Positions 11,398 through 46,800 of a DNA stretch of 64,000 bases are shown here, piece after piece. The stretch spans positions 90,080,571-90,144,570 of the forward strand of contig NC_134846.1 of the NCBI RefSeq assembly GCF_965363235.1, in the 5' to 3' direction. The position numbers and the translations under genes are program-made. The DNA is from Mytilus galloprovincialis (lineage: Eukaryota > Mollusca > Bivalvia > Mytilida > Mytilidae). The notes beneath the pieces were generated by a model, which was not told where the DNA came from, did no database searches, and saw nothing but the letters and a program-made list of their open reading frames with translations. Each line of letters begins with the position of its first letter. The first letter of the stretch is position 1.

Positions 11398-14300
11398 AAG
11401 ACGCAAAAAGAAAGTTATATTGATAAGATAATACCAATAGATTTATTTATTATATGTTGCTATTATATTTGTGTATATTATATTGTAAATTAGCAGTTAT
11501 AAATAATAAAAATTTAAAATAAAACTTTACCTGAGACACGTTGAAAGTTCCTTTAAAGTTGACGTCAAACATCCTGTAATCGAAATAAGAAAAGTAAGAT
11601 CACATATTATAAAGCATCAATGGGATTTAGTTTATACTGGGCAAATAGTACGACTAAAAATAAACAATAAATGATTTATTGATTAACTACTGATAGTATG
11701 AAAGGATTGGTACATTTGTGATCAAGTAATCCTGATCCAGGGAAACATAATTTTTATTTCGAAATACAATTCAAAATGTATACGAATACTAACTAAAAAG
11801 AAAAAAAATATATCTTATATCTTCTCAACTATTTGTATATAACATGAAAGCAACAGTAATTAAAGAAACATTATGTCTTGTTTCAAACTTGCAAATACCC
11901 AAAAGTAAATGGCGTATCAAAAAGTTCAGATGCCATCATTGAATAAATATAAGGTTTAGAAATACGTCTACTCCTCGTGAACCGATTGAATTAAAGACCT
12001 ACAATGTATTACACATCATGTAACAATTACATTGATATTACAATAATTTAATTTTGGAAGTAAGGCTTCTTCTGATTGGCTGACGTTATTTTGTTATCAA
12101 CCCATAGACATAATTTTGTCATGTGACCGTGACGTCGTCAACGTTTTTTCATGGTTTTCTACGGTTTAAAATGGAATTTAGAATTAAATTATAAGAAATG
12201 ACTTCTTAAATGTAATACAAAATTTATTTATTCTTTAAACGTCATTCATGTTTGATATCTTACATGTCAATGTTTTCTTTTGGAGTATTGATGAATGATG
12301 ACTTCTTAGATACACCAGCATTGTTGACCAGTAGGTCTATGTGTCCGATCTTACTGACCTCCTCTCTTGTTTTATCCCAGTCTAGTAGGTCTACATTAAG
12401 TATGTTGATAGTTGGTACCTAAAACAGAAAACACCAGTACCATGAGCGAGTAGATATATGTGACCGATCTTACTGACTTCATATCTGGTTTCATTCCAGT
12501 CTTGTAAGACTACGTTAATAATGTTGATATGTTATGTGACACCTAAAACAGTTAACACCAGTATTATAAAACATTAGGTATATGTGGCTGATCTTACTGA
12601 CTTCATCTCTTGATTTATCCTAATCTTTTGGGTTCATGTTAATGACGTTGATGTTTTGTACCTTATTAAAGGCAACAGTAGCAGACCGCTGTTCAATAGT
12701 TATAATTCTAAAACAAATCCGGGTCACATACCAAAACTGAATGACACACATCAACTGTAAGAGAAAGCTAACGCAACAACAGACTAAACTGAACTACAAC
12801 AAAACCAAGCGCAAACATATATAGGGACGGACTATTTTACAACTTCCATATTCCTGACTAAGTTCAGGACATTTTGAGAAAAAAATGTGGGTTGAACCTG
12901 GTTTTATGTCTAGCCAAAATTCCCGCTTTTATGACAAAGTTACAAATACCGCAAAAATGACAACATTACGTAGCAGAAATACAATACACAACTGCTCCTA
13001 TACCAATTGCTAAGAAATAACCCCAATTTCCCTTTTCTTTTCTTATTCAATTGATTTTACCTGTTTTACGGTATGCAAGATGTTTGTTAGCTGTTGATTG
13101 CATTTCTTATTCCCAACAAATAATAAAAAAGATGAACTTATTTGTATATGAGGTATTGAGATATTTCTATTATTTAAGTATAAAAACAAATACTTCCTGA
13201 AAATGTACTCGTATACATCATATGTTAACATTAAGTTACGTCTAGTTCTATTTTTAATTATCTGCCGTTTAATCTATATATTTACCTCCAATTTTAAACT
13301 ATCCAAATCAGCCTGTGTTCTACTAAGTGCAAATGTTTCTGCTCCACATTCTGCTAACTTTTTCGCAATAGCTCGACCAAATCCTAAAATTTATATTGCA
13401 GTACAATTTCATCTGTTTTTGAAACGAAATTAAAATTGTGTTCATAAATTTTAAATCTGATGTTTGAAACTTCTTAAGACTTCAGTATGAACTTAAATAT
13501 AATTTCGGTTCAAAAACAGATGAAATTGTACTGCAATATAAATTCTAGGATTTTAAGTTAACGAATCGAGATGACGTTTGAATATATGTGATATTACGAT
13601 ACAGTATAATATGTTGTATTAAATGAGTTTATCCTAGCATGCAACTAAAAAATCAGGTGTCATGTTAAAAAAAATGATAAAATACAACATATTATACTGT
13701 ATCGTAATATCACATATATTCAAACGTCATCTCGATTCGTTAACTTAAAATCCTAGAATTTGTTCAATGCTTTACATAGATTATACCGAGAGGTAAAGAC
13801 ATATCAGTGTCATCGATCTTAGATTTGGTTCCACTTTTTGGGTAAAATATTCATAATTTCGTCATTCCTTACCTCTTTGATTCTATTTTTGGAGTTGACG
13901 AGTAGTATGTAAACGTATCGATCATTTGATTAAATTTGACTAATACGTTAACATTTAATACTGGTATACGCTCTTTGAATAGTGCTTCGGTATTATCATT
14001 AATTATAAATAAATCATAACATAACTACATATGCATTCCTATAGTTATGAACACTTGTGATAATTATATTTGGCATTGAAAAAGGTCATGAAATGTCAAA
14101 AAAAAGTTATCAAAGGTACCAGGCTTATAATTTAGTACGCCAGACGCGCTTTTCGTCTACGCAAGTCTAAAAACTGTTTATGGCGACTTTAAAACTATTT
14201 CATTTGCCGGAGAAATACTTTAGTACAGAAAACACGATTTGTGTATCAGTTTTTGTTGGATTTAAACTAGCTTCGAGCTGCGAGCTCTTTTAGCTTGGTA

Positions 14301-15509: not shown

Positions 15510-15539
15510 TTTCTAGTATTAATGTACTGTTTCACACTT

Positions 15540-17050: not shown

Positions 17051-17056
17051 TAAAAG

Positions 17057-17225
17057 GTTATCAAAGGTACCATGATTTATATTTTAATAAACCAGACGAG
17101 TGTTTCGTATACATGAGACTCATCAGTGACGCTCAGATCAAAATAGTTATAAAGCCAAAGTACAAAGTTGAAGAGCATTGAGGACCTAAACTTCAAAAAA
17201 GTTGTGCCAAATACAAGTTTTTTTT
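17057..17225 (+). repeat. 'gtttcgtctac' family copy upstream of the lipocalin
   Basis: Runs 'gttatcaaaggtaccatg', 'cagacgagtgtttcgtatac', 'catcagtgacgctcagatc', 'gttgaagagcattgaggac'. It ends about 450 bp before the lipocalin start codon. Confidence 0.8.
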
Positions 17226-17619: not shown

Positions 17620-17640
17620 CACAACCAATACTATAAAACC
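17620..17640 (+). promoter_or_regulatory. TATA box and CCAAT-like element of the lipocalin gene
   Basis: CTATAAAA at 17631-17638 follows AACCAATA at about 17622-17629. A TATA start site about 30 bp downstream would leave a leader of only about 10 nt before ATG 17672. Confidence 0.6.
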
Positions 17641-17671
17641 AAACTGTTATACAAGACCCACACAGAACAAA

Positions 17672-20281: not shown

Positions 20282-20287
20282 AATAAA
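20282..20287 (+). terminator. Candidate lipocalin poly(A) signal
   Basis: AATAAA 172 bp after the stop codon. Hexamer match only. Confidence 0.4.
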
Positions 20288-22647: not shown

Positions 22648-22898
22648 TCAGGAATTAAATACATTAGGCAGTTCTTCATCATCACTGTTAATGTTTTCAT
22701 CCTCCTCCAACAAAGACGGGTCTATTTTTCTCCTCTTTCTCCTTTGTCTAAGACCAGCAGTACCTGGTACCCGATAAGTCAGATCTTTCTGAAAGTCCAT
22801 CTCTTCTGACCAATGGTCCCCTTTCTCTAATGATACAGATTCAGGGACCAGTTGCTGTATATTAGGACTATCTGTCGATAATGATGATTTACAGGAAT
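22648..22898 (-). CDS. ZGRF1: ZGRF1 window exon 28 (terminal)
   Basis: Acceptor TTTATAG. Encodes SCKSSLSTDSPNIQQL, the basic RQRRKRRK stretch, an acidic end and stop TGA. Confidence 0.85.
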
Positions 22899-25800
22899 CT
22901 ATAAAATACACAAAAATACTGAACTCCAAGGAATATTCAAAATGGAAAGTCCTTATCAATTAATATAATATTTAACAGAGGGAAAAATAACAAGAGACAA
23001 AACCTATGAACTATTGTTTTTGTTAACCCTAGTACTGCAGGACGTCGATATAGTGACGACCTGTTTAACTTTACTATACTGCCGGTCGTCGATATATATT
23101 GATAACTTCCGGTAGTTTCATTAATTGCCGGTCGTCGATATATTGACTTTCTATACAAGGTAAAAGAGGGACGAAAGATACCAAAGGGACAGTCAAACTC
23201 ATAAATCTAAAACAAACTGACAACGCCATGGCTAAAAATGAAAAAGACAAACAGAAAAACAATAGTACACATGACACAACATAGAAAACTAAAAAATAAA
23301 CAACACGAACCCCACCAAAAACTAGGGGTGATCTCAGGTGCTCCGGAAGGGTAAGCAGATCCTGCTCCACATGCGGCACCCGTCGTGTTGCTTATGTGAT
23401 AACAAATCCGGTAAATAGTCTAATTCGGTAGGTCACATTCAGGAAAGGGAAGGGGATTGTAGTTACGACGTAAGGTTTCGAGTTCTAGCCAATCAAATCA
23501 CGCAGCTATTCTTATTTTTAGTCAATATTACATCAGGAGAAGGATTTCCCCGTAGAAAGATGTTTTCATTGGTTGCTTCCAGCATTCCATTCTAAAATTA
23601 TTTTGATGACAAAATTGACCTGTAGTTTGTTTACATTCGAGTTTGAAACAATGGAAGTTGTCAAAGAAGTAGCGGATGGAGATGCGTTTTTATAGCAAGT
23701 AGACCCTGAAAATTGTAATTTTGTTGAAGAAATAATTCTAAATGATGATTGTAATAAAGGATTTTTATGTTTTGATGAGGATGATCTAGAAAATGATGAA
23801 AAAATAGCGATGTTTAACACGTGGAAACCTGGATACACGTGGTCTCGCTTTTGATTCTGTAAAGAAGTTAAAACTCTGCCGTTTGACAAAATCCAGTGAT
23901 GATAGATTTCTTTAGTTTAATTATTGATTAAAATTTCATAAATAAGTTAGTTGAAGAAACAAACCGATACACTATAAACTTTTTTTTTCGTCAGAAAGGA
24001 CAATAACATTGAAACCACACTCGTGGTTCATATTCAAATTACCAAGGTTGACATGAAGTCGTGTTTCACGAAATAATGAAAATATAATATTGAAACAGCT
24101 ATTTGACTTTTAAGTGCTAATTAAATAAGATAAACAAATATGTTTAATGATCAAATAAATAAAAACATAATTTTTCTACTTTTATTTGATTTAACTAAAT
24201 AATTTCATAATCCACTGTCACTTATTTTACACTATGAAATTCTGCATTCAATTCTGCAAAACAAATACATTCAATGCTATTTTCTAAAATGTTCAGAAAT
24301 CAAAGAAAATTAACAAAACAATAACATTAGCATTAGGCTAATTAGCATCATGGCACTGCAGTGAACTGATAATCTATTTATAGCTGGCAGTACTAGGGTT
24401 AATAGGAAACAAACAGTATTTAAAGCAACAGAGAACATAAAACACTTCTGGATAACAGCAGTAAGCATATTTTCATAATACGTCTGTCGTTTCAAAATGA
24501 TGGTAGTTGGTAACTGGCTCTTGACTAGGACTGAAATATAAACAAATTTCACTTCCCATTAATAAACTCAATGAAGTAGCATTCTAAATATATACCTGTA
24601 AGAGACATTGGTGGACTACTGGAAGCATCATCTGTTAACATTTCTTGGTTGTTATGGTTACGTTTTTTCTTCTGTGAACTTTCCGTTGGTTTAGGTTCTA
24701 ATTTGAATCTTTCTCGTATAGTATCTGCACTCTGTAATCCTTGGAGACTGGAATCTATTAAAAATAAAGTTTGTCAAGTTTTTAAATATGTTTGATGGCC
24801 TATTTAATGTAAACAGGCTGCAATATAAAGACAATACATGTTTTGGCATTGATATTGATGTTCTGTCAGGGGTTAGAAGTGAAGGACTTCCTGAGAGGGA
24901 CTTTCTGAAAACAACCTAAACAACTGCTGGGTCTGTTTGTCTCCAATAGAGTATTGTCTGATTAAAAATTATTCAACATCTTATTTTTTTTATTTAATTG
25001 GAGAGTTTTGACAATAGCAATCATTGCACATCTTCTAGCTTTTATACAAATGGTATCCAAACTATTGTTCAAAATCAGGTTGAGCATGCCCCCAGAAAAA
25101 ATCACCCATGCTAAAATGATTTAGACAGCTATAACGAATCTGGACCCTTTATATTTTCATGTCATGGAAATAGAAATGCTTCTGACAATAACATATATTT
25201 TTGGAAACAATAAATGTTTTATATTCAAAATTTTTCAATTGATTGTATATAGCTCTGAAAGTATGAATGCTCCATTTATCAATTTTCAATTTCTAGATGC
25301 ATTTCAAACTTTTAAAGGCATACAAATTTTCAGATAAATGCGGGCCAACTACCATTACTTAGCCTGGATTAAAAAAAACTTTTGTGAGCATCATCATATA
25401 TCCCATCCCATCTCCCAACATTCTCCCTTGGTAAACAAAATCTTACTTAGATTCCTAAGTTCAAAGTCTTATAACTCCTACAAAAGACAAACTGTGCCAT
25501 ATAGATATATTTAAATATTTAAAAGGTGACCCATTCCAGTGGCACGTCTGTGTACACCTTCACCAAAAGAAATCCCTCCCTTTCTGATACTGGTATCTGT
25601 ATGTGTGTACCTTCATATGTAGGTTTTTGTGTATAAGTGTTTGTTTACGTAACAAACACAGCTGTACAGTGTATCTTACCTTTACATTGCTGTATAATTT
25701 GATGCCACAATTTATTCTTGGTCAGGTTATTTTCATTACCAACAATCAACAGATGATGTTTGGCTCTAGTCAAGGCAACATTGGTTCTCCTGTGAAATCA

Positions 25801-28800
25801 TAGTATCTCATAGAACATTTAAATTTATTTTGTGTTACAAATAAAACTTCTGTATATGGTCATGATTTTTTCTTCATTTTAATATCTTTAAAAAATATTT
25901 TCTTCATTTTAATATCTTTAAAAAATATAAACTGTTAACACAGATTTATATCTTGTCTTTTTGTTATTAGATGGTAAAATGCAAATGTTGAAATTAAAAT
26001 AACAATATGATCAAGTTATGCAAAATATTTAAAGTCAATGAACCATAACTAAAGGAACCAGGCCAAACAATCTCCATGGAAATGAAATGCATCAATGCTA
26101 AAACAACTACATTCCAAATTTCATTGAACAAACACTAGTGGATTCTAATAAAGTTGAACTGACCTAATCACAAACCTATACATGTAAAGTTCATCAAGGC
26201 AAGATGAAATGCGGTCATCTCAACCGTACATAATTAATCCTTATAACTTATTTATACAGATTTACATGAAGGATCACAGAATATAAAGAGGATTTGCTCC
26301 TTCACAATATGTCTTATCCTACCCTTACCAACAACTTAAACTGAATTTAAATATTCAAATTATTACATGCTTTATGTGAAAAAGAAGATGTGGTATTATA
26401 GCAATTAAGACAACTCTTCACATGAGACCAAATGATAGAGAAATTTTCAACTATAGGTCACCGTACAGCTTTCAACAATGAACAAAGTCAATACCATAGT
26501 CAGCTATAAAAGGCGACGAAATAACAAGTGTAAAACAATTCAAACGAGATAACAAATGGCCTAATGAATTGATATCTGTTTTCACCGGACTGGTTTTAGG
26601 CAAAATGGTTTAAAAATTTCAACTGATAAAATGATTAAATATTGTTGGAATCCAGCATACTTTTCATTATCAATAAATCCCACATTTCTGGTTCTGACAC
26701 AAGACAGGAGGATCACATCTCTCTCTCCTCCTTGGAAAGCATCAACTGTAGAAACCATTACACCCTTCAACTCTTTACAGTTTCTGTCAAAATAACAAGT
26801 TAATTCACAAATCATAGAAAGGTATCACAAATGCATTAACTTTGTCCATGTGGATTGACAACAGCTTTTCTTAATTTTGAATCCTTGTCACTTTGTATGT
26901 TAGCTAGTAGTTACTGCAAATGTCAGCTTAGCAAACCTATACTGAGACAAATCTTATAACTTTTGTAGCTTTCACTTACTACCAGTATAAGTCACTGATA
27001 TGAATTGTTTTCAATTTATTTTGTTCGTTAGTTAAGTCTTATGTTTGATTTTGTTCCTTTTTATGGACTCCTTCTTTTTTTCAATACTTTTGTAATACCA
27101 TTTTTCAGCAGTCTAAGTAAAGGTTTATTTTATACTTACTTATTGCTGCCTAGCAAGTTTGTAATTTTATACATCTGAGATTTATAGAGGGAGATAACTC
27201 CAATCCTGACAGGATCTACATCTCGGTCAACCAGTACCTCAATCAGAAACATTATAAACTGGGCCTCTTTGTCATTGTAAAAGCTGCCATCTCTGTCATT
27301 GATTTCTAGGCCATCACATACATCATAAAAGCAAAGGGCAGGTAACTCATCCTTAAAAAGGTATAGTAATCATTCAACATTGAATTTTAAAAATTTCAAA
27401 GTGACTTTTTGTCCCTAGTTAACATGGCTATATAGGTTTTATAAGTATAAAGAAGCAAATAAGCAACATTAAAATATATTTGAAGGTCCCCTAAAGGTTT
27501 TGTAGGACTATGAGAGCCATATTGCACATAAAACCTCCATGTCCATTTTAAACTGTTGGCAGGTATTGACCTATTTTTGTGTCATTTGGTCATATCTTCT
27601 TTTATTCAGATTCATAAACTAAACATAGAAAAATTTTGTAGTCTATAATTTTGATTAATTTTGATATTAAGGGGGCTTGCGGGTATAAATCATTTTTTTT
27701 TTGTAATATAGGATTTCGCTATATTTTTTCAAAAATAAACTTTATCATATACTAATAGGAAAATGAAATATAAAAATGGGGTCACCTTTCATTTAAGCTC
27801 ACAATCTGCCTCCAAAAGAAGCATACATTTTTGTTAATGTCCTTTTTTTCTGTAGAACTAATAGGAGAAATAAAGGTAATATTGAAATAAAAAAAGAACT
27901 AAATTACAGAAATTGCTTAAATTTTACAATTATTTAGTTTATGTAAAGCTTATTTGAAAACAATAATAAAAAATATAGGTCACCGATGAGTTAAAGAAGA
28001 TATTTCAATTCTAATGCCAAAAAATGGCATTTTTGTACAAAAGGGAGATAATTTGGAGCTTTTTCAATAATATAAACATTTTAAAAGTCATCTGGGGCCA
28101 AACTGAATCTATTTTTTAGATGATTTTAGTACCATATCATAAAGTAATAACTAATAGTGTAATAAATAAAATTTGTAATAAAAACACAAATGTTTAATTT
28201 TTTGCCGACATTTTTGTACCGACGAGCCTCCTTCAGTATACATATACTAACCATGACTGGGTCCCTGTCCTCCACAGATATCCCATTCCTCAATACATTA
28301 TCATAAAATAGAGAGTTGGAGACTTGACTGATATATGGATGACATCTGTACTGTGTGTGTAACATAACAGGACTATGACCCTACAAAATATTCCTTATAT
28401 ATTCCCTCACATGAAATTCAAGGCAAGTTATTTTTATGAGTAGCAAATATATCTATTCCCTCACATGAAATTCAAGGCAAGTTATTTTTATGAGTAGCAA
28501 ATATATCTATTCCCTCACATGAAATTCAAGGCAAGTTATTTTTATGAGTAGCAAATATATCAATTTTCACAGGATCAAATATTTGGGGTTTTAATGCAAC
28601 CATTTTTTTTTAATTATCAACTTCGATGGAAACAGATATCAAATAAACCTTTCTATACTCATGATACTGTTTTATAAGTTACAAACATTAAAAAGAATTT
28701 GCATGCAATCTCATGCTAGCATACTCCCACTGGTAATTCAGTATTGACAAACAAGAAGTATATAGATTTGAGTAACACTCACATGTTGCATCTCATTATA

Positions 28801-31800
28801 GTTAAGCTGTTGACCAAATACAAAGTCATTTTTTTAAAGTTTGAAAATTAGGTTATTGCAATTTAGTCTAACTTCTTAAAAGGAACAAACTTAAAAAAAA
28901 AAACCCAGTAATTACCATTAGTGTAATTCTATCAAAGAGGGTCTGTTCCAGTCCATGTACTGTTGATGATTCACTGCCTTGTATTGTAGGATCTAGTTGC
29001 TGGAAAAAAACTTCCATTTGAATGGGTACAATATAGGCCATTTGGAATTGATAACATACACATGCAAAATTTGCTCACATGAATTTCACATGAATCTCAC
29101 ATGAAATTCACATGAAAAATTTCACGTGAGATTCACCTCAATCGAGCTTATACATGAAAATCACGTGAAAATTTTGAGATTCACATGAATTTGATGTGAA
29201 ATTTTTCAAATTTTTTTATTATTGTTATTTGAAATACTATTTTTTTTAAATTCATGTGATTTCTAATTATTGCAATACTCAACCAGTTGCATTATTCAGA
29301 TTAAGAAAAACCTTACAATAATTTTAATGAATTCACAGTATTACAAATGTTATAGAAGATTGTATATGAAGTTTTATGATTGAAATTATCTACCTTAGGG
29401 TCACCAACTAAAACCAATTTCTGACATTTGAACTTTGCCACAGGTAACATAGAGGCTGGCTCAGTCATCTGTGAACATTCATCTAACAACACTATCTAGA
29501 AATAAAAATAATTATCAAATACATATTTTTTTGTGGCTTCTTTTTCATTTTAAAGTTACTAGTCCTAAAAAAATGTAAATTAATACACGTCTAACCAACA
29601 AATAAAATGTGACAGTGGCTATGAGTTACAACTTCTCAGAACAAGTACAGGACACAATATATTTTCACATTTGTTATCTCATGTCTTGAAGTTAATGTAA
29701 AAGCAGTTAAACAATAATAAGGTTAAGGTGGTACCCAACACTTTCACTAAAATTAATTTGGCTCGTTTAATTTTCATAAAATTTGGACAATGTATTTACT
29801 TTGACCCTCTAACAAAAATATAAAAATTTCAACAATTTTGAACCAACCGTTTTGTCAGAAAAATTACACTGGTTATATAGCAGTTTGACAAACACCTATT
29901 TTGATCATTGAGAAGCTTAACATTCCCTATATAACACAACATAATTAAAACCTTTAGCTGACTTTACAGAGTTATCTCCCTGTAGTGTTAGGTACCACCT
30001 TAAATGATGATTTAATTTTTTTTAATATTTTTCTCTTTTTTTGTTTGTTTTTGAAGATATCAGTGTGTATCAGAAGAACTTATAGGATATGTCAATGAAA
30101 CAGAATAATTTTATCCTTTCTACATACAAACTGATATATCGTTTTACAATTTTCATGTTAGATATAGAAATACAACTTGTATGAACCGTGTGATTATTCC
30201 TGTATATTAAAAGATTTAACAGACTTACAGGAAACTTCATATCTTTGAGAGTATTAGCTGAACAGGAAGCACATGTTACTCCAACCACCCGCACTTTACT
30301 CAGTTTCTGTGAAACAGAATACAATGGATTAAATGAACCTCTTTTATCTGCTGGTTTCAAAAATTCTTTACTATTAATGGTACTTTTCATATCGTTTCAC
30401 AAACCCCTTATCACTGTTTGGAGATTTGAGCCTGTTGACGAGAGAATCTGCACCAGTTGAACTTTTGACGTCATATAAAAATCACTCTTCAATTGTGGTG
30501 TCAGATATTTTCTATTGGGACATCAACATTTGTGATGTCCAGTAATGGCTGACAAATAGCGATAAAGTGTATTTGTCACTATGGCAATTTATCACTGAAT
30601 GCTTTACCTCTATTCTATTTTTGACAAATATTTATGTCACAGAAAAAATATATCTGAGATTCATCAATTAAGTAAAAAAACAAAAATTTTCCTAGTCTTA
30701 TCATTTTAATATGTACACAATATAAAAATAAGGAGATGCAATAAGCTACCTACTAAAGTTTAAATGAAGTTGATGTAAGCAATCATAGCTATAGGCAACA
30801 GTACAAATTTCACAATTTTTACTTAGGACAATAAAAAATTACTTACAGCTCTGGACACCATTGGTGTGTAGGCACTAGGGCAGCAACAAACTTATTTCAA
30901 AAGTAACAAAGATTAAAATACCTTTTTATTTTCTCCAAGTTTGTGTTTCTCGATACTTTGTTTTACATGTCTGGAAAAAAATATTTATAAGAAATAAATC
31001 ATTTATGAATCTGCATTAGTCATTATAACCTCACTGGGGTAAATGTGATATCTTCAACTGTTACACTGAAGAATGTAATATTATGTACCAACAAATTTTT
31101 AACACCTCTTTACAAAATACTAAGATTAATACAACAAATAAAAATTCAGTGATTATTCTTCCCTAAATATTCTTTGCTTGGTTATCCACTGCTTTAAAGC
31201 TACAGAAATTATTAATGTTTCACTCTATGACTGTAAAATCCTATTTACTCACTGTTTCTCTGTGGTGGTAAGTTCACCACTACGTAACATCATTTGTAAA
31301 TCTTTCAGTTCCTGACTGTCTGACCCTGTAGCATGTACACTATAATGTAAAATAATTATATGTACACTATAATGTAAAATATTTATATGTAACGTGACGG
31401 TACCCAAATTGCACCTATTTTGACAGTTTTTTCATCTACGTTTTTTTATGATGAAAACAAAAATGTCCATTCTGTGTTTATTTTGTAGCTCTATCCTTCT
31501 TTATTATAAAGGTACACCAATTTGATTTTTATTCCATATGGAATCATAGAAAAATTGGTCTAAACTGACCTCCAAACCATCAATGATTCTGAAATGAGGA
31601 GTACCCAAATTGCTTCCATGCTTAAATTCACATAGTCAAAAGTCTAATAACAGAGCTTTTGTTTAATTTCTTTAAATATTTTGAACAACTGGATATTAGT
31701 CCATGCTTACTCTTCATTATTTTTTAAATGGATACTTGTAACATATTGTATTTGCTCATTTTAAAAAGATGACGTTTTGATGACGTCGCATGGCGACGTT

Positions 31801-34800
31801 TCAGTACATTTTGCTTTTTCAGTAAATACTTCATCTGTTGATAGATACTGTGAACGTTTTGTGCATATCTAAATAGTTTTACCCATGTTGAAAGATGTGC
31901 TTAGTATCAAATCATATAAAAACAAATTGTTTAGTCTCTAGAAAATCTTGTAAGATTTTCGCTGCTAGTTTGCTAAATAGGTGCAATTTGGGTACTCGGT
32001 GCAATTTGGGTACCGTTACGTTACACTATAATGTAAATGTTTATATGTATGTGTGCACTATTATGTAAAATGTTCATAATTATAATCTTCTAAAACTTCT
32101 GGCAACACGGCATCATTACTAGACAAAAAATCTTGAAAATGAAGAGGTATCGTTCCCATGTTTTTGAATAGTGTTGTATGCACCAATAATATTTCTACTT
32201 GCAAATAAATGGAATGAAGAATAGATCTAACACAATGGCTTGCTTTAAAACAATTAAAATATAAAAAAGAAAATCATACTTCAATTAATGTATTTTACAC
32301 AATAAAATTTATGTTTTACTTTTTTCTACTTTTTTATAATGTGAAATTGAAAATTATGAAGATTACTTACCTGAAGGGTAATATAGGTTTGGATATTTTT
32401 TTAACACTACCAACTCTTACAAACTCCTCAAATCCTATGGCTAATAACCTATAAATATATTGTACGTTTTAGTACATTATCACAATAAACTAGGCAAAGT
32501 GATAAAAATCAAAACCTCATGTACACCTTAAAATTATGTACAAACAGCTCAACTATCTCCCAAAAGGCAAATATTAATAAAAATTAAAATCCTGACCACA
32601 ATGCACACCTTTAATTAATGTACAAGCAGCCAGCAAAGAGAAAACTTCCTAGCATACAAACTGTAGGAGGAGTTATGCAAAATAACTATATACCTATAAT
32701 TGGACAGACGGATGGAAGGACAGACAGATGGAGGGACAGAGGGATGGATGGACAGGGGTAAAACAATATGTGCCCCAACTTTTTGTTGCTGGGGTATAAA
32801 AATGTTGAAGTTATAACAATTTTCTGTAGCATGAGTTCTAATTCTGGCCAGGGAGGAACAAAATTTGCTTCCACAAATTTACACATCTTACATTGTTGGG
32901 CTGATATTTAGACGAAACTATATATACAGAATGTGTTTTCAGCCTTGTATCACAATCACTGATGATCCAATGGATAAAACCTATCGTAGAGTTATCACTG
33001 GTTCACCATACTTATTATATATTCTATATACAACATTACTTTTCTGAGACAATTTATGAAAAAAAATTTGAATTATAATCGTAATGTTTTTTTCTACAAT
33101 AAATTGACTTAAAACTTGACAACTAAGTAGTAAACTTGAGAACTAAGGAACTTCTTACCCATTCAGAATTCTGTCTACAGCAACATTAGTGGTGGAGGCT
33201 ATTAAAAGTTTCCATGGAAAGGGAACTCCAGGGGTGTATGTATCATTCCTCTCAAACAACCAAACTAAAAATACTACGACTACTGACAATAGAAAACTTT
33301 TACCGGCTCCAAACACACCTGAAAATGTAAAATGGTATGATAAATATAGGAAGACTGTGTCAAAAGTCACAAATGATCCAGCTCAAGATTGCTTATAATA
33401 TGTTAAATATTTTTTAATCTTTGGTCAGTAAACATTCTGGCAACTTTAATTAATGCTCCTTAACCTTTAGAATAGACATACAAGGTATAAGTAAGATATA
33501 TTTTTGTCGGTCAGTAACCATTCTGGCCACTCTTAATAAATGTTGTAGACCTTGCAATCCCTGACCATTAGTTAAGACATACCATGTATAAGTAATATAT
33601 CTTTCTCTCGGTCAGTAAACATTCTGGCCACTATAATTAATGCTGTAGACCTTGCTATCACTAACCATTAGTTAAGACATACCATGTATAAGTAATATAT
33701 CCTTCTGTTGGTCAGTAAACATTCTGGCCACTATAATTAATGCTGTAGACCTTGCTATCACTGACCATTAGTTAAGACATACCATGTATAAGTAATATAT
33801 CCTTCTGTTGGTCAGTAAACATTCTGGCCACTATAATTAATGCTGTAGACCTTGCTATCACTAACCATTAGTTAAGACATACCATGTATAAGTAATATAT
33901 CCTTCTGTTGGTCAGTAAACATTCTGGCCACTCTAAGTAATGCTGTAGACTGATCTTCATTCAATTTATACTGGTTTATAAGTTCTTCTACCTTCTCATC
34001 CTAAAATGAAGTAAACATACATAAATAAGTCCTATTAACATTCTTTTAATATGCATGTTAATAAGGAAACTATATCATGATATATTATCAAAATTGAATA
34101 TCAATTTCATTGTTACTATGTTTGTTTGCATAAGCCATTGTACAGAATTTGGCTGTACAGAATTTGGCACTGATATTAAGTTAACACATATATTTTGTCG
34201 CTCACCTTGGTCTATGTGAATATTAAACAATGGACACAGATGGATTCATGACAAAATTGTGTTTTGGTGATGGTGATGTGTTTGTAGATCTTACTTTACT
34301 AAACATTCTTGCTGCTTACAATTATCTCTATCTATAACAGTACTTTCTGTGGAAAATGTTATTGAAAATCTTCAAATTTTAAGAAAATTGTTAAAAATTG
34401 ACTATGAAGGGCAATAACTCCTTAGGGGGTCAATTGACTATTTTGGTCATACTGACTTATTTTTAGTTCTTACTTTGCTGTACATTATTGCTGTTTACAG
34501 TTTATCTCTATCTATAATTAATATTCAAGATAATAACAAAACTAGAGGCTCTAAAGAGCCTGTGTCGCTCACCTTGGTCTATGTGCATATTAAACAAAGG
34601 ACACAAATGGATTCATGACAAAATTGTATTTTGGTGATGGTGATGTGTTTGAAGTTCTTACTTTACTGAACGATTTTGCTTCTTACAATTATATCTATAA
34701 TGAACTTTGCCCATTAGTAACAGAGAACTATATTTGGTAAAAATTTACATAAATTTACCAAATTAATGAAAATTGTTAAAAATTGACTATAAAGGGCAAT

Positions 34801-37800
34801 AACTCCTTAAGGGGTCAATTGACCATTTAGGTCATGTTGACTTATTTGTAGATCTTACTTTGCTGAACATTATTGCTGTTTACAGTTTATCGCTATCTAT
34901 AATAGTATTCAGATAACCAAAAACGGCAAAATTTCTTTAAAAATTACCAATTGGAGGGCAGCAACCCAACAACCAGTTGTCCAATTCATCTGAAAAATTC
35001 AGGGCAGATAGATATTGACTTGATTAACAATTTAACTTCTTGTCAGATTTGCTCTAGATGCTTTGGTTTCATAGTTATAAGCCAAAAACTGCATTTTACC
35101 CCTATGTTCTATTTTTAGCCGTGGCGGCCATCTTGGTTGAATGGCCAGGTCATCGGACACATTTTTCAAACTAGATACCCCAAAGATGATTGTGGCCTAG
35201 TAGTTTCAGTGGAGATTTTGTAAAAGATTACTTAGATTTATGAAAAATGGTTAAAGATTGACTATAAAGGGCAATAACTCCTAAACGGGTCAACTGACCA
35301 TTTTGGTCATGTTGACTTATTTGTAGATCTTACTTTGCTGAACATTATTGCTGTTTACAATTTATCTCTATCTATAATAATATTCAAGATAATAACCAAA
35401 AACAGCAAAATTTCCTCAAAATTACCAATTCAGGGGCAGCAACCCAACAACCGATTGACCGATTCATCTGAAAATTTCAGGGCAGATAGATCTTGACCTG
35501 ATAAACATTTTTATCCCATGTCAGATTTCCTCAAAATGCTTTGGTTTTTGAGTTATAAGCCAAAAACTGCATTTTACCCCTATGTTCTATTTTTAGCGGT
35601 GGCGGCCATCTTGGTTGGTTGACCAGGTCACGCCACACATTTTTTAAACTAGATACCCCAAAGATGATTGTGGCCAAGTTTGGATTAATTTGGCCCAGTA
35701 GTTGCAGAGGAGAAGATTTTTGTAAAGGATTACTTTAATTTACGAAAAATGGTTAAAAATTGACTATAAAGGGCAATAACTCCTAAACGGGTCAACTGAC
35801 CATTTTGGTCATGTTGACTTATTTGTAGATCTTACTTTGCTGAACATTATTGCTGTTTACAATTTATCTCTATCTATAATAATATTCAAGATAATAACCA
35901 AAAACAGCAAAATTTCCTCAAAATTACCAATTCAGGGGCAGCAACCCAACAACCGATTGACCGATTCATCTGAAAATTTCAGGGCAGATAGATCTTGACC
36001 TGATAAACATTTTTATCCCTGTCAGATTTCCTCAAAATGCTTTGGTTTTTGAGTTATAAGCCAAAAACTGCATTTTACCCCTTTGTTCTATTTTTAGCCG
36101 TGGCGGCCATCTTGGTTGGTTGACCAGGTCACGCCACACATTTTTTAAACTAGATACCCCAAAGATGATTGTGGCCAAGTTTGGATTAATTTGGCCCAGT
36201 AGTTTCAGAGGAGAAGATTTTTGTAAAAGATTACTTTAATTAACGAAAAATGGTTAAAAATTGACTATAAAGGGCAATAACTCCTAAACAGGTCAACTGA
36301 CCATTTTGGTCATGTTGACTTATTTGTAGATCTTACTTTGCTGAACATTATTGCTGTTTACAATTTATCTCTATCTATAATAATATTCAAGATAATAACC
36401 AAAAACAGCAAAATTTCCTCAAAATTACCAATTCAGGGGCAGCAACCCAACAACCGATTGACCGATTCATCTGAAAATTTCAGGGCAGATAGATCTTGAC
36501 CTGATAAACATTTTTACCCCATGTCAGATTTGCTCTAAATGCTTTGGTTTTTGAGTTATAAGCCAAAAACTGCATTTTACCCCTATGTTCTATTTTTAGC
36601 CGTGGCGGCCATCTTGGTTGGTTGACCGGGTCACGCCACACATTTTTTAAACTAGATACCCCAATGATGATTGTGGCCAAGTTTGGTTTAATTTGGCCCA
36701 GTAGTTTCAGAGGAGAAGATTTTTGTAAAAGTTAACGACGACGGACGCAGGACGACGACGGACGACGACGGACGCAGGACGACGGACACCGGACGCAAAG
36801 TGATGGGAAAAGCTCACTTGGCCCTTCGGGCCAGGTGAGCTAAAAACAGCAAAATTTCCTCAAAATTACCAATTCAGGGGCAGCAACCTAACAACCGATT
36901 ATCCAATTCATCTGAAAATTCCAGGGCAGATAGATCGTGACCTGATCAACAATTTTACTTCCTGTCAGATTAGCTTTGGTTTTTGAGTTATAAGCCAAAA
37001 ACTGCATACCCCCGTGTTCTATTTTTAGCCATGGCAGCCATCTTGGTTTGTTGGTCGAGTTACCAGACACATTTTTTTAACTAGATACCCCAATGATGAT
37101 TATGGCCAAGTTTGGTTAATTTTGGCCCAGTAGTTTCAGAGGAGAAGATTTTTCTAAAAGATTACTAAGATTTACCAAAAATGGTTAAAAATTGACTATA
37201 AAGGGCAATAACTCTTAAAGTGGTCAACTAACCATTTTAGTCATGTTGATTTATTTGTAGATCTTACTTTGCTGAACATAATTGTTCTATTTTTAGCCAT
37301 GGTGGCCATCTTGGTTGGTAGGCGGGGTCACGCCACACATTTTTTAAACTAGATACCCCAATGATGATTGTGGCCAAGTTTGGTTTAATTTGGCCCAGCA
37401 GTTTCAGAGGAGAAGATTTTTGTAAAAGTTAACGACGACGGACGACGACGATGCCGCCGGACGCAAAGTGATGGGAAAAGCTCACTTGGCCCTTCGGGCC
37501 AGGTGAGCTAAAAAAGAACAGTGAAATGATTTTTTCAGTACACCATAATAAATTTAATTTCTGCTAGAGCCATAAATGTATGTTTGCCCTCTAAATGTCT
37601 TTTGGTTAGTTTGATAATTGCTTTGCTGTCTTATTGACCTTTACCCAACATTTCCTTGTATATGTACTTACCACATAACCTTCTGGGACATAAATATTGG
37701 TGTTCTCTGACATTTTTATATGTACTTACCACATAACCTTCTGGGACATAAATATTGGTGTTCTCTGAGACTTTTATATGTACTTACCACATAACCTTCT

Positions 37801-40800
37801 GGGACATAAATATTGGTGTTCTCTGACATTTTTATATGTACTTACCACATAACCTTCTGGGACATAAATATTGGTGTTCTCTGAGACTTTTATATGTACT
37901 TACCACATAACCTTCTGGGACATAAATATTAGTGTTCTCTGAGACTTTTATATGTACTTACCACATAACCTTCTGGGACATAAATATTGGTGTTCTCTGA
38001 CATTTTTATATGTACTTACCACATAACCTTCTGGGACATAAATATTGGTGTTTTTATATGTACTTACCACATAACCTTCTGGGACATAAATATTGGTGTT
38101 CTCTGACACTTTTATATGTACTTACCACATAACCTTCTGGGACATAAATATTGGTGTTCTCCGACACTTTTATATGTACTTACCACATAACCTTCTGGGA
38201 CATAACTATTGGTGTTCTCTGACACTTTTATATGTACTTACCACATAACCTTCTGGGACATAAATATTGGTGTTCTCTGACACTTTTATATGTACTTACC
38301 ACATAACCTTCTGGGACATAAATATTGGTGTTCTCTGACACTTTTGTATGTACTTACCACATAACCTTCTGGGACATAAATATTGGTGTTCTCTGACACT
38401 TTTATATGTACTTACCACATAACCTTCTGGGACATAAATATTGGTGTTCTCTGACACTTTTATATGTACTTACCACATAACCTTCTGGGACATAAATATT
38501 GGTGTTCTCTGACTCTTTTGTATGTACTTACCACATAACCTTCTGGGACATAAATATTGGTGTTCTCTGACACTTTTATATGTACTTACCACATAACCTT
38601 CTGGGACATAAATATTGGTGTTCTCTGACACTTTTGTATGTACTTACCACATAACCTTCTGGGACATAAATATTGGTGTTCTCTGAGACTTTTATATGTA
38701 CTTACCACATAACCTTCTGGGACATAAATATTGGTGTTCTCTGACTCTTTTTATATGTACTTACCACATAACCTTCTGGGACATAAATATTGGTGTTCTC
38801 TGAGACTTTTATATGTACTTACCACATAACCTTTTGGGACATAAATATTGGTGTTCTCTGAGACTCTGTATACCCCACATTTTCCTTTTATATGTACTTA
38901 TCACATAACCTTCTGGGACATAAATATTGGTTTTCTCTGAGACTCTGTATACCCCACATTTTCCTTTTATATGTACTTACCACATATTGGCACATAACCT
39001 TTTGGGACATAAATATTGGTGTTCTCTGAGACTCTGTATACCCCACATTTTCCTTTTATATGTACTTACCACATATTGGCACATAACCTTTTGGGACATA
39101 AATATTGGTGTTCTCTGAGACTCTGTATACCCCACATTTTCCTTTTATATGTACTTACCACATAACCTTCTGGGACATAAATATTGGTGTTCTCTGAGAT
39201 TCTGTATACCCCACATTTTCCTTTTATATGTACTTACCACATAACCTTCTGGGATATAAATATTGGTGTTCTCTGAGACTTTTAAAGGAGCAGTAAATGA
39301 AGAGGAGCTTCTTTCTGTATTGCTGTACAAATAAAAAAAAAAATATAATTAAAAAAAAATTGTTCAACTATTACTCTTATAATCTAACCTAACTAGATGT
39401 GAATTAATGAAACTACATAACTGAAGAAAAGTTTCCTTAAATTGTGACATTAGTTTCTAACTATCAAATGTGTGACATTCCCAAACATAATGCAAAGCAT
39501 TTCTTAACACTTATAAAGACTAAAGACTTGTCCTTTTTTTTTTCCTTCAAATACTAAAGTCCCATTTAAAACTAGTCCTATTGTGGAAAAATTGATAAAG
39601 TAATAATCAAATCCTGTAAGCCAGGTGAGCATAATCCCTAATAAAATCAATTCCATATTTGTGTTGATGATGTGTAAATTTTGACATGATTTACCCTTTG
39701 TGTTTAATACGTTTATTGTCCACTAAGACTAAAATCTTATACTTATTGTAGGCCAATAATTCTATGTACTTAGAATTTTCTCAAGCACCAATCTGTTGCA
39801 CAAATGTTTTATAGAATATTTTAGAGGAATTAATTACTGTTTATTGATAGACTGCTGCATGGCCCACCATCAAACATACAAAGTATATTGAGTATGATAT
39901 TTTTATACTTTTCTGACATGCTAACTCTAAAACAGTTATACAAGAAGACTAGTCACTTAACCATACCCAGATGTCAAATCATTCTGATTTAGTCAATACA
40001 TGTAGTTCTAAGTCCTGAATGCCCTCTGCTTGACAAGAAATTAGCTAATACCATTGATTTCAAGTTTTAGATGGCTTGGTATGTAACCTACCACCTTACT
40101 CAATCAAAGCATCACCCTTCTATCAGATCACTGAAGTTATTTACCAAGCCAGTAAGGACTGTAACACAGGAACATCTGTAATAGTCACATTCTCCTCTAA
40201 GTTCACCAGATAACTTAATTCTCCAGACACATTCCCTCCTAGTATGGCATGACATTTCTCTGAAATAATACAAAAGATATTGCTGTTGGAACATAAAACT
40301 GGAACTTCTTGTAGCCTAGTAAAACACTACTGTACAAGTGTAGCTGATACCACCTTGATTTAAAATCAGGACATACATTTCATTCTAAGGAGATCTTCTT
40401 CAATCAGAATTCATAAGTGGTACATACTAAGGACCATATTGTTCAAATTTTTCCTTGCAAATATCGGAATGCATTTATAAAATGAAAGGAGGCTGATAAA
40501 TTAGAATTGGGTTTGTTTAATATTTATTTAGTGATTACTTGATATCTAAATAAAGAAATTTATTTTCCTATAAAAAAAAATTAAAAAAAAACTTTGTAAG
40601 TTAACATATACCTCCATTTGACCAGTTAGAGGGACAGAAACTGGCTATAGGTTCTATCTCCACTTCATTCCCTGATGTTGGTCCATAATATGTACTCTTA
40701 CACAGAACTGTAGACGAAGGTCTGAAGTCAAGATGTCTGGATATTATCCATAAATCATCTGTAATAAAATATTATGGTGATATATATTTCTTCAAACAAC

Positions 40801-43800
40801 ATAGATAAATTTGTTGTCAGTAACTCTTCGTCTGTGCTTTATAATGAGTCTAAAAAAAATAATATTATTAGTTGTTCTACTTCTTAAAATTTAGCAGCTT
40901 GTATTAATCATCCATGTCATCTAAACTCTGGTGGAAAGTTGTCTCATTGTTTATCATACCACATCTTCATTTTTTCAGTTCGAGTAAAGGATGTTACCTC
41001 TTTACTCATTGAATAGTATATAACTTAAACACGAAAACAACCAAAACAGTTATATAAAGAATACAATATCATCTTTGCAATAACAGAATATATGTATCTC
41101 CTTTTATTTTCTTTACTTCTCACTATAATCCATGGTTATCTTTCCATCATAATTCTATATGCCTCTTTGTTTTTACCTTTTGAGTATAAACCTGAGTTAT
41201 CTTTCTTTGATAATTGTATGTACATCTTTTTCTTGCCCATGTTGCCTGTAATATCCATACCCATCCTCTGTTTTACCCAATTCTGCAAAAAACAAATGTA
41301 AGTTTTCTTTTTGATAAGGTAAATATTGTGCAAGGAACACACACATACAGGTTCTTTAAGTAGAACTTCTTTAATAAATGCACTTTGAAAATTCAAAATC
41401 TACAAGTACTTACTGGTGTGTTTCTTCTGAAATATGTCATAGTGGTTTGTCTGATTACCTCCCAATGTACTTTAAATACTGGTGTGTTTCTCCTGAAATG
41501 TGTTATTTTCTATTGATTACCATCCCTAGTATTTACTGGTGTGTTCCTTCTGAAATGTGTCATGTTTTCTGTTGATTACCTTCCCTGGTACTTACTGGTG
41601 TGTTTTTCCTGAAAAACGGTGTTTTTTTTGTTGATTACCTCACTTGGTATCTACTTGTGTGTTCCTCCAGAAATGTGTCATGTTGTTTTTTGTTGATTAC
41701 CTCCCCTAGTACTAACTGATGTTTTCTCTCTGAAATGTGTCATGATGGTTTGTGTTGATTATCTCCCCTAGTAATTACTGGTGTGTTCCTCTAAAACATG
41801 TCATGATGTTTACTGGTGTGTGTTATTTTGAAGTGTGTCATCTTTTCTGTTGATAACCTCCCCTAATACTTACTGGTGTGTTTATTTTGAAATGTATCGT
41901 GATGTTTTCTGTTAATTACCTAACCTAGTTCTAACTGGTGTGTTCCTCCTGAAATGTGTCATGATGTTTTCTATTAATTACCTCCCCTAGTACTTACTGA
42001 TGTGTTCCTCCTGAAATGTGTCATGATGTTTTCTGTAGATTACCTCCCCTAGTACTTACTGATGTGTTCCTCCTGCAATGTGTCATGATGTTTTCTGTAG
42101 ATTACCTCCCCTAGTACTTACTGGTGTGCTTCTCCTGAAATGTGTCATGATGTTTTCTGTTGATTACCTCCCCTTGTACTTACTGGTGTGCTTCTCCTGA
42201 AATGTGTCATGATGTTTTCTGTTGATTACCTACTGGTGTGTTCCTCCTGAAATGTGTCATGATGTTTTCTATTAATTACCTCCCCTAGTACTTACTGATG
42301 TGTTCCTCCTGAAATGTGTCATGATGTTTTCTGTAGATTACCTCCCCTAGTACTTACTGATGTGTTCCTCCTGCAATGTGTCATGATGTTTTCTGTTGAT
42401 TACCTCCCCTAGTACTTACTGGTGTGCTTCTCCTGAAATGTGTCATGATGTTTTCTGTTGATTACCTACTGGTGTGTTCCTCCTGAAATGTGTCATGATG
42501 TTTTCTATTAATTACCTCCCCTAGTACTTACTGATGTGTTCCTCCTGAAATGTGTCATGATGTTTTCTGTAGATTACCTCCCCTAGTACTTACTGATGTG
42601 TTCCTCCTGCAATGTGTCATGATGTTTTCTGTTGATTACCTCCCCTAGTACTTACTGGTGTGCTTCTCCTGAAATGTGTCATGATGTTTTCTGTTGATTA
42701 CCTACTGGTGTGTTCCTCCTGAAATGTGTCATGATGTTTTCTGTAGATTACCTCCCCTAGTACTTACTGGTGTGCTTCTCCTGAAATGTATCATGATGGT
42801 TTGTGTTGATTACGTCCCCTAGACTAGTACTTACTGGTGTGTTCCTCCTGAAATGTGTCCTGATGTTTTCTTGTGATTTCTTGATGAATGTACAATCACA
42901 GTAGAAATAAACATGATGACTTTTTATAAATGTAGAAATGGATGTTGGGTCAGACATTGTTTGTTTGTCTATTCCTCCTTTCTTATTGTGTCCACCTCCT
43001 TTCTCATCTGACCACTGGAAAAACTGAAGAAAAAAATCAATGACATATTGTACTTTTTAATCGTTTGTCATTTTAACAAAAAAATATGCAAAAATAATAA
43101 AATCATTTAAATATAATTATCACAGCTTATATACAATGACTCTTAAATGAAGTTTTCTGACACTAAAGACATAATTGGCGTTAGGTAGATCTTGGTCATC
43201 TAAGCATCATGATCTTGCCAAGGTTGTTTCTGTTCTAGAAACCTTTTTTTAACCTGTGTGGTCTATTTTAAGCTGTACAGGACCAGTTACAGTCAGTTAC
43301 CAAGTACCCTCATCTGTCATTTAATTTCATTAAACAAGTGTTGCATAAAAATAAAATGTTGAAATCTTTACTTCATTGATAAAAACTCTGTTTTGTTTGA
43401 TCTGATTAAGATAGGGAAATGCAGAATTTTCTGTTAATAAAACTTGTTGTGGAAAGTTACATATGTAGGGACAGGACTTCATTGCTTTATGACAAATTCA
43501 ACATTATTAGGCAAAGCAATATCTAATCTTTATTTTGAATATAGTTTCTTTCAAAAGAATTTAAAAAAAATTATAATTTTCAAAATTAAAGGCTATACAT
43601 CTCCTCAATATAATGTGAGTGGTTGATTTCAAGTTAATTGTTTAAAATGGCTTTCCAAATTAATTGTTAAAATGGCTATGTGTTTTGTTCAGTTGAAATA
43701 CTTTCTTCTCTTCTTGTTATACATATAATATTAATGTCCTAATTATATGTAAGTTGTATCTTTTATTGGCAAACTGACGTTAACTGGTCAACAAACCTAT

Positions 43801-46800
43801 CAAATTTCTAACAAAATTTGGCATTCTAATAACCATTTTTTTGCTGGTTCTAAGTAAAAATGAATTCTGAGTCTATGGTATTATGCCTAACTTTTGGTAC
43901 ACATTTTTATAAAGGAACATTTTCCATAAGGGTTCCTGTTACTGTGGATTCTTTTAATTTCGTAGGTACCAATTTTCGTCGATTGAGAAAAACTTCCACT
44001 TTTCGTAGATATTTGATTTCTTGGTTTTGCTAATGTCTGCATACAAGTCTATGGAAAATTTGTAATTCTTTGATCATTCAAATTCATGGTTCACCTGTAC
44101 CTACATATCCACAGAAATTGGTATCCAATATCCACAGCAATTTACTTTGAGCGAAACAGTGAACTTCTGATGGTGACTGGTGTTTGACCAGTACAGACGT
44201 TATTATTCGTTCCCAGACAATATCTACAACTTCATTTAACAAGAATTAAGACCAAATTAAATGTAAATTTCCCTATTCATTTCTCAAAAGATTTTTTTTA
44301 ATGATAAAAACATCAGAAGACAAGGATGAGAACAGGCACCTAGAACTGGCAATGACTTTCTTTTTACCTTACATTGACTGTTCCTAGCAGCATTACAAGC
44401 ATAGAAGAATCTGTTATGATTGGGACCAGATTTTTTAACTTGTATCATCTTTGATGGAGCTCCACATTTACAGACTGGGTTACTGTTTACTGTTCCTTTA
44501 TTCTCTGTTCCTAAACAAATATATCATAGTGTTTATTTTAAAAAGTGTATGACATTATATATCTAAATCTTTCTCCTTCACCTTTTCATTTTTCCTTTAG
44601 GTTCATATAGAGGATCATAAAATGGCAGTGTTTCTAATTTTCTTCGAAAATCGTTCTCAACCCAACTTTTAATCTATTCTATATCATTTCAGTATCTACC
44701 TATATGAAAAGATATTAATACTACTATTAAATTTAATCAAAATAACATAGACAAACAATTAAATTAAAGGTCCATCAACTCATAAAATTCAGCTTCATAT
44801 TCTAGATATCTTGCTAAGAGTTTTATTTTTAAGTTTTGTAATTCTTGACATTTCACAAAATAGGACAAAATTAACACTTTTTATCTTCTATTGTATCTAC
44901 AAGTTTTTTCTGCAGAGCTAATTTGTGACTTGAAATTTGAGCTTGGAATTGAATAGATATCTTAGTATTGTTAGACATGAGCATCTTTGCAAGTTTGATA
45001 AGGACTGAATTCTTGAAGTTCTGGTTCTGTCAATAATGTAAATCCCTATGTATCTTCAGTCCAAAAGGAAAATAATAACAACTTCATGTTTCAAGTATAC
45101 ATGCATTTATATACTTATTCCTAACCCTTGATAACTTATTAACATACGTAACTATACCTGGCACTGTTGGCAGATATGAGGTGGTATCTATCTTAGATAA
45201 TGCATGGTGATACTTCACTCCAAGGTCAAACAGGATAATGTTCAAATGTTCTGAAAATATATACACCAAGGTCAAACAGAATAATGTTCAGATGTTCTGA
45301 AAATATACATGATATATGCACCAAGGTCACAAACATGACAAAGGATAATGTTCAAATACTCTAAAATATATACAAGGTCAAACAGAATAATGTTTAAATG
45401 TTCTGAAAATATATACACCAAGGTCAAACAGGATAATGTTCAACTGTTCTAAAAATATATACACCAAGGTCAAAACAGAATAATGTTCAAATGTTCTAAA
45501 ATATATACACCAAGGTCAAACAGAATAATGTTCCAATATTCTAAAAAATTATACACAAAGGTCAAACAGGATAAAGTTCAAATGTTCTGAAAATATGAAC
45601 ACCAAGGTCAAACAGAATAATGTTCAAATGTTCTGAAAATATATAAACCAAGGTCAAATAGGAGAATGTTCAAATGTTTTGAAGATATATATATATATAT
45701 ACCAAATATTATAGAATATATATCTATGAATACTTCCACTAGATCCAATTGGATAACCACATAAGGTGAATATTTGTCTATCATCATACCTTTAAGAGCA
45801 GCTGTAAAGACTTGCTTGTAGTTACTAAGGGAGGTAAATCTTGTAGGAATCTCCATCTCTCTAACTAGTTGACTATTTTCTGTTATTTCTTGTATACTTG
45901 GGAACTGTAAGTCTGATCCTAAATTTCTCTGTTGAAATGAAGTAATACAAATTATATAAAGCAGGGGTTACATGTGGAAGAAGCAGTCTGTTGGTCATGT
46001 GTCATCTGTTTGTAACATCATTCACAATGTAAACAATGAAATGATGTTTTATCGTATTTAATTATCATCTAAAAAAAATTCTAACAAATTATAACTGCAT
46101 CAAAAAAGGATAATCATTTCAACATTTTATTTATTTGCAAATTTTTTCTTCATGTTCACCCTCCAAAGAAATCAGCACAGCATATAGTCCTTTGTATTTT
46201 ACAAAAAAAATCACAAAGAATTACTATTACTAACAAGAATGTGTCCAAAGTACACGGATGCCCCACTCGCACTATCCTTTTCCATGTTCCATGGACCGTG
46301 AAATTGGGTAATAATCTAATTTGAATTAAAATTAGAAAGATTATACTAAAGGGAACATATGTACAAAGTTTCAAGTTGATTGGATTTCAATTTCATCAAA
46401 AACTACCTTGACCAAAAACTTTAACCTGAAACTCCCACTTTCATTTTCTATGTTCAGTGGACCGTGAAATTGGGGTCAAAAGTCTAATTTGGCTTTAAAA
46501 TTAGAAAGATCATATCATAAGCAACAAGTGTACTAAGTTTCAAGTTGATTGGACTTCAGCTTCATCAAAAACTACCTTGACCAAAAACTTTAACCTGAAC
46601 GGACGCACAGACAAACGGACGCACAGACGAACAGACGAACGGAGCCACAGACCAGAAAACATAATGCCCATCTACTATCGTAGGTGGGGCATAAAAATAT
46701 ATTGAAATATCTTGTCTGAATGAAAAATAAACCACCTAGACTAATTTAAATAGAAATACTATTACTTACAAGTAGTAGCTATAATTATTACCTTTGTTCC

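Follow-up and report, generated by a model that had tools for sequence, protein, structure and literature searches.

Why should tandemly repeated DNA come to lie across the boundary between an exon and its intron, and what becomes of the splice-site copies multiplied along with it? This question is raised by a stretch of 64,000 nucleotides from the mussel Mytilus galloprovincialis (NC_134846.1, positions 90,080,571-90,144,570; hereafter the window), which was chosen because of its array-at-junction pattern and which contains an SDR gene and a gene that we call ZGRF1-like, both with tandem arrays at their splice junctions. A preliminary description of the window had counted at least six exons with such arrays in the two genes, three at donors and three at acceptors, and had held that the outermost splice site is left in use, that the phenomenon may be general, and that the junction may be a hotspot of replication or recombination. 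The reading that we favor, with a probability of roughly 60%, is that these are junction-spanning minisatellites arising by exon-biased duplication, whose splice-site-carrying copies are spliced out and escape selection.

Junction-spanning arrays in the window

The exon models on which the analysis is built were obtained with splice-site matrices, for which 72 acceptors and 73 donors of homology-anchored exons served as the training set, together with a small gene finder and hand curation, the last of which removed the false mini-exons that the gene finder had placed in arrays and dispersed repeats. Exons 5-24 of the ZGRF1-like gene encode the Pfam domains PF06839 (GRF zinc finger) and PF13086 and PF13087 (UPF1-like helicase), the best solved relatives being NAM7/UPF1, and it is from this pair of domains that we take the gene to be ZGRF1-like. 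When the whole protein was stitched from exon 1, no join was found between exons 3 and 4, and frame tests on this gene were limited to exons 4-26, which form one continuous frame of 1477 amino acids when the outermost splice sites are used. The SDR gene is recognized by a PF00106 match of 53 bits in the exon adjoining the arrayed one, and it is presumably DCXR-like, a name that we use as a label only.

Tandem Repeats Finder (TRF) returned 62 rows for the window, which merge into 18 arrays at a period of at least 25 and a score of at least 80 (Table 1). Six of the 18 span one of the 56 modeled junctions, where a uniform-seed model expects 1.6, a comparison to be read with the selection of the window for this very pattern in mind. 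All six overlap both exon and intron, and TRF and the exon models agree with the three donors and three acceptors previously counted, the case of exon 16 being weak.

Table 1. Genes, exons and tandem arrays of the window (positions within the window)
Feature	Position	Strand	Description
ZGRF1-like gene	22648..64000	-	GRF zinc finger and UPF1-like SF1 helicase; 26 exons modeled; 5' end beyond the window
SDR exon, acceptor within array	12264..12418	-	PF00106 at 23.6 bits, under the 26.6 cut-off; 86-88% amino acid identity to paralogues L002-L004
ZGRF1-like exon 16	31253..31339	-	Exon model, frame
ZGRF1-like exon 13	33883..34000	-	Exon model, frame
ZGRF1-like exon 12	39238..39322	-	Exon model, frame
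ZGRF1-like exon 8	42835..43023	-	Exon model, frame
ZGRF1-like exon 6	45158..45250	-	Exon model, frame
SDR exon acceptor array	12329..12610	-	Period 119, 2.3 copies; per unit ~90-107 bp exon and 17-34 bp intron, by hand
Exon 16 acceptor array	31333..31391	-	Period 27, 2.2 copies, AT-rich, 8 exonic bases only; weakest case
Exon 13 donor array	33474..33950	-	Period 100, 4.8 copies; unit of 68 bp exon and 32 bp intron
Exon 12 donor array	37655..39280	-	Periods 58/79/89; first unit of 43 bp exon and 36 bp intron
Exon 8 donor array	41405..42878	-	Period 62, higher-order period 236; first unit of 37 bp exon and 30 bp intron
Exon 6 acceptor array	45220..45691	-	Period 46, 10 copies; unit of 34 bp exon and 12 bp intron
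Array within exon 4	47414..47640	-	Period 96, multiple of 3
Array within exon 1	63749..63856	-	Period 54, multiple of 3
Counter-example, entirely intronic array	28396..28565	-	16 bp from exon 21 acceptor
Counter-example, entirely intronic array	25868..25928	-	79 bp from exon 24 acceptor
Counter-example, entirely intronic 365-bp repeat	9593..10469	-	18 bp from SDR donor

Recurrence in exons outside the window

The window was picked for the pattern, and exons from families not chosen for it were therefore sampled. Pfam searches of the 1.385-Gb genome gave exon-level matches for kinesin (125), MCM (23), and dynein AAA_8 (80), and the sample consists of 83 exon loci (L009-L091), namely 30 of the 125 kinesin, all 23 MCM, and 30 of the 80 dynein AAA_8 matches. 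Eight arrays overlap an exon end, at 7 of the 83 loci and in 6 genes, which is 8 of the 166 sides of these exons, or about 1 in 20. They are found at the kinesin loci L011, L016, L019, L036, and L030, the last with arrays at both ends, and at the MCM loci L051 and L058, which by their coordinates belong to one MCM gene. The dynein AAA_8 query exons had no exon-end array in the 30 loci sampled; at L079, an array lies at the exon next to the query exon, and the dynein identity is confirmed. The clearest case is L030, where six copies that are 97% alike repeat a 133-bp unit, of which the end of the intron supplies about 21 bp and a kinesin exon about 112 bp.

Three further arrays were considered beside this sample. 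A kinesin locus with 2.8 copies of 118 bp over a donor (L092) was picked because it looked repeated, and it is counted in the figures on unit parts and periods only, not in the frequency or edge counts. The two others are neighbor arrays: L027 has kinesin as its sole PDB match, at E = 0.35, with none in Pfam, and is not firmly confirmed as an exon, and L022 has no match in PDB or Pfam, its exon call resting on a reading of the sequence.

The number of arrays at junctions exceeds what chance placement predicts. With 140 located junctions and a first unit placed at random, about 2 junction-spanning arrays are expected, and 6 or 7 are observed depending on the threshold (Poisson 0.016 and 0.005, respectively); L011 stands outside this count, the matrix not having placed its acceptor. 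When the near edge of each array is located in the 83 loci (period at least 25, score at least 80), 8 edges fall in the exon and 4 at 100-200 bp into the intron, the intervening 100 bp holding none; the comparison of 8 with 0 has a binomial probability of 0.004. There is also a strand asymmetry: a strong donor occurs in the array unit in sense in 14 of 51 arrays and in antisense in 2, or in 13 and 2 after the overlap of L010 with L016 is removed.

Composition and period of the repeat units

The units consist mostly of exon with a short intronic tail. When the units of 15 arrays were divided into their parts, the intron was found to contribute 0 to 36 bp. The median intronic share is 0.27, with exon 16 as the one case above one half; the median is 0.14 for the 8 sample arrays and 0.21 for the 12 arrays first measured by script. 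The shares of the SDR, exon 12, and exon 8 arrays in the set of 15 are hand-read, the SDR copies being too diverged for measurement by script, and a later script gave intronic parts of 36 of 79 bp for exon 12 and 30 of 67 bp for exon 8, close to the hand values. For a randomly hit junction an even spread of the share between 0 and 1 is expected, from which the arrays depart (Kolmogorov-Smirnov probability of 0.001 for all, 0.0003 for the sample, and 0.0001 for the 12).

Only 3 of 17 junction-array periods (L092, L022, and L027 included) are divisible by three, as for untranslated sequence; the arrays inside long ZGRF1-like exons have periods divisible by three in both of two cases (96 and 54). 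Microhomology at the breakpoints amounts to 0-4 bp, as judged by eye only, and BLAST similarity among SDR paralogues stops 9-12 bp beyond the donor. Six of the eight sample junction units have no match in the other fetched loci, which is not the behavior of a dispersed element, and for the units of L030 and of L016 there are 2 matching loci apiece, presumably kinesin exon paralogues.

Excess of tandem splice words across the genome

For a view of the whole genome, occurrences of the donor word CAGGTAAGT were compared with those of its reversal. As single sites the two are found 10,610 and 10,824 times, respectively, whereas as tandem pairs the donor word is found 322 times against 134 for the control with 31-61 bases between, and 378 times against 140 with 62-92 bases between. 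Pair counts of this kind are inflated by long arrays, and distinct loci were therefore counted: from C1 to C5:42.28 Mb, among the first 100 listed places for each word, there are 31 distinct tandem loci for CAGGTAAGT and 10 for the control (P = 0.0006). The word AAGGTAAGT gave 356 tandem pairs against 81 for its control, these being raw pairs not scaled to single-site frequency, and at least 28 loci among 100 listed places. At the six CAGGTAAGT pattern loci whose letters were shown, the units are all different; of four units compared with PDB, one codes for the terminal part of a GPSM2 (LGN) exon (E = 0.0002), and the other three have no relative there. The suggestion that the phenomenon is general is supported within this genome, in which the pattern recurs in unselected kinesin and MCM exons, beside a dynein exon, and in the donor-word counts.

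Individual places in these counts are of interest in themselves. Two donor-word arrays lie 2.8 kb apart at G000:C2:33940610 and C2:33943427, the first being the GPSM2 exon end; a single gene may here carry several arrays at its junctions, as is seen in the window. At G000:C1:7066749-7069966 there are 35 exact copies of CAGGTAAGT, mostly with a 78-bp period, and a second donor array (64 bp) occupies C1:7060302-7061206, about 6 kb from it.

Which copy of the splice site is used

In exons 4-26 of the ZGRF1-like gene, the frame holds with the splice-site copy that is joined to the unique part of the exon. Swapping in the intact inner GT or AG copies of the five ZGRF1-like arrays brings a premature stop in 58 of 59 cases (4 at exon 13, 24 at exon 12, 24 at exon 8, and 6 at exon 6), and the only intact inner site that keeps the frame is a single 27-bp shift at a decoy acceptor of exon 16. 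Inner copies that hold the frame as alternative or mutually exclusive exon ends were accordingly seen at exon 16 and nowhere else among these arrays, and an earlier frame test on 25 shifts, some of them lacking an intact splice dinucleotide, gave the same picture. Across the 15 arrays, the inner splice dinucleotide is intact in 99 of 104 recognized copies, a proportion raised by a recognition rule that favors intact copies. Twenty-seven inner donor copies are recognized in the exon 12 array, 24 of them with an intact GT, and 24 in the exon 8 array, all with GT. In many units of the exon 8 array (41405-42878), an AG stands 13 nt upstream of the donor copy, such that a 13-nt micro-exon is readable in principle.

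For the SDR gene, the comparison is with three tandem SDR paralogues near the window (L002-L004, G000:C9:90027814-90076049), each of which has one extra upstream exon copy by BLAST, the window SDR array having 2.3 copies by TRF. The inner copies do not share the constraint on the main exon, because the extra copy is 59-70% identical in amino acids where the main exon is 86-88% identical, and has a stop in L004. That the extra copy is common to the SDR paralogues suggests a duplication that preceded the copying of the gene. The claim that the outermost splice site is left in use is supported by the sequence for both genes: in the ZGRF1-like gene the reading frame argues for it, and in the SDR gene it is the decay of the inner copies in the paralogues, and that only, which points to it.

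A proposed mechanism and its alternatives

In the mechanism that we propose, a short tandem duplication would begin within an exon and end just beyond its splice site; the copy joined to the rest of the exon would keep a working splice site, and further copies would land on the intron side. In exon definition, an acceptor and a donor are paired across the exon. If the nearest acceptor and donor are those paired, the extra copies would leave with the intron. Duplications wholly inside a coding exon would be purged unless a multiple of three, and those carrying a splice site would be nearly unseen by selection and could grow to a score or more copies. This would account for the presence of arrays at junctions and their absence from the interior of conserved exons, splice-site-carrying copies being spliced out and internal out-of-frame ones purged. 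Arrays in the adjacent intron would be equally harmless and are rarer, and a process favoring exonic DNA is therefore called for; duplication, or its retention, seems biased to exonic DNA. What is directly observed is the arrays, their units, the agreement of the frame with the outermost sites, and the excess across the genome; the removal of the arrays by splicing, their selective neutrality, and the exon bias of mutation are what we infer.

Two candidate sources of the bias may be named. In a very polymorphic genome, only exons may be alike enough between homologues for unequal exchange, and in that case other animals of high heterozygosity would be expected to have like arrays, and genetically uniform animals to lack them; alternatively, the repair of staggered nicks could be responsible, which would fit the near-zero microhomology seen by eye. 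The most far-reaching form of the proposal, in which exon-biased tandem duplication operates genome-wide with splicing as an escape hatch, leaving about 5% of exon ends with 2 to about 27 splice-site copies and possibly owing its bias to exon-limited unequal exchange, is one that we put forward tentatively, as a possibility with the odds against it.

Several observations weigh against exon-biased duplication with removal by splicing. Array coverage per base has no peak at junctions: it amounts to 4.2% at the ends of exons and to about 3% at 51-150 bp, and reaches 10.5-12% at 1.0-1.4 kb, which shows that most array DNA lies away from junctions. This measure gives weight to long intronic arrays, some of them dispersed repeats, and one intronic array counts in it for its full length; the seed and edge statistics were therefore used, and the negative result stands. 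In the window itself, 6 arrays span a junction, but another 3 lie entirely in the intron and no more than 100 bp from one, and a looser threshold adds to the sample an intronic array 42 bp from its exon (L038; period 24, score 65). The sample counts are small, and several of the arrays are in shared genes. The excess for the acceptor word TTTTCAGGT is modest, at 204 against 135 pairs, counted as pairs and not as distinct loci, with 26,411 against 25,304 single sites. Two equal tandem donors, moreover, are not always resolved in experiments toward the outer one.

The alternative closest to the preliminary description places the hotspot of duplication at the splice junction itself and links it to transcription or splicing. 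In all 15 units one breakpoint is near the splice site (intronic part of 0-36 bp), as a hotspot would have it, yet 14 of these units are mainly exon, arrays also occur inside exons whose protein can accommodate them (2 in the window), and exonic duplications lacking a splice site are likely lost to selection, so that junction arrays would stand out regardless. Base coverage has no junction peak, and the mainly exonic units fit an exon-biased, splicing-filtered process at least as well; we consider a junction hotspot unlikely. It is less probable still that there is no bias at all and that random minisatellites of an array-rich genome sometimes land on junctions, as might be thought from the abundance of arrays everywhere (62 TRF rows in 64 kb) and from the higher base coverage of deep intron compared with exon ends; the seed model (6-7 against 2), the edges (8 against 0), the strand asymmetry, and the distinct loci (31 against 10) all speak against it.

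That the arrays are functional, providing alternative exon ends or regulating splicing, would be in keeping with the 99 of 104 recognized inner sites that are intact, subject to the same favoring of intact copies by the recognition rule, and with the in-frame decoy at exon 16, but the stops brought by 58 of 59 intact inner sites and the decay of inner copies in the SDR paralogues make this very improbable. An error of assembly, or repeats mistaken for exons, has the smallest chance of all in our judgment, next to none: tandem repeats are in general error-prone in assemblies, but the copies here differ among themselves, the units are mostly locus-specific, the exons are backed by Pfam matches and a continuous frame, and the paralogues also carry the extra SDR exon copy.

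Relation to known systems

Arrays of this kind are already known in human paralogues and from intron gain. Human segmental-duplication genes have variable internal tandem repeats at exon-intron boundaries that may be either kept or spliced out, with 27 intron modifications remaining after manual inspection (PMC2812944). The likeness lies in minisatellite arrays at exon-intron boundaries; the human system concerns recent paralogues, with units of about 30 bp on average and altered transcripts demonstrated in RNA (PMC2812944), whereas here conserved exons of core genes are affected, with units of 25-133 bp, about 5% of sampled exon ends, and a bias to the exon side.

Tandem duplication is also an accepted route to new introns (PMC3443670, PMC4974935, PMC3629103), with a duplicated intron-exon structure in the potato RdRp (PMC4974935) and several copies of 24-nt units in fission yeast (PMC3629103). 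These cases resemble ours in the tandem duplication of a segment bearing splice signals (PMC4974935, PMC3629103, PMC3443670). They differ in that they create a new intron, whereas here the intron is taken to be pre-existing and to gain decoy copies at its edge; the exon phases show the introns as they now stand. Introners, or transposon-derived introns, reportedly place repeated splice-site-bearing sequence at many loci per genome, a likeness to the present arrays, but they form a dispersed family, whereas the array units here are copies of the local exon.

Among the open-licence papers listed in our searches, no report of such arrays in a mollusc was found, nor of any genome with about 1 in 20 exon ends arrayed or with exon-biased units, and it is thus the frequency and the exon bias that we did not find reported there. 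If the proposal is true, an exon-biased duplication process is indicated, and the genome would supply many naturally made constructs, each a repeated exon end complete with its splice site, allowing a direct test of the choice among equal sites and of exon definition; splicing would act as a filter that lets exon-derived DNA accumulate in introns, as raw material for intron change.

Other features of the window

An intronless B-box/NHL-like (TRIM-type) gene lies at 49505-51217 on the plus strand, within an 11-kb intron of the ZGRF1-like gene and on the opposite strand to it. At positions 1-657 a 33-bp unit, its length divisible by three, is repeated 20 times, and the minus strand there has long open frames. 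A dispersed element of about 325 bp (12665-12988) lies immediately upstream of the SDR array, 36 of its 40 scored genome matches being at 74-80% identity. The repeats at 46265-46599, 54290-56339, and 57819-58224 consist of mutually similar units of 169-189 bp, which are like the 168-169-bp units in other fetched loci and represent a dispersed satellite-like element.

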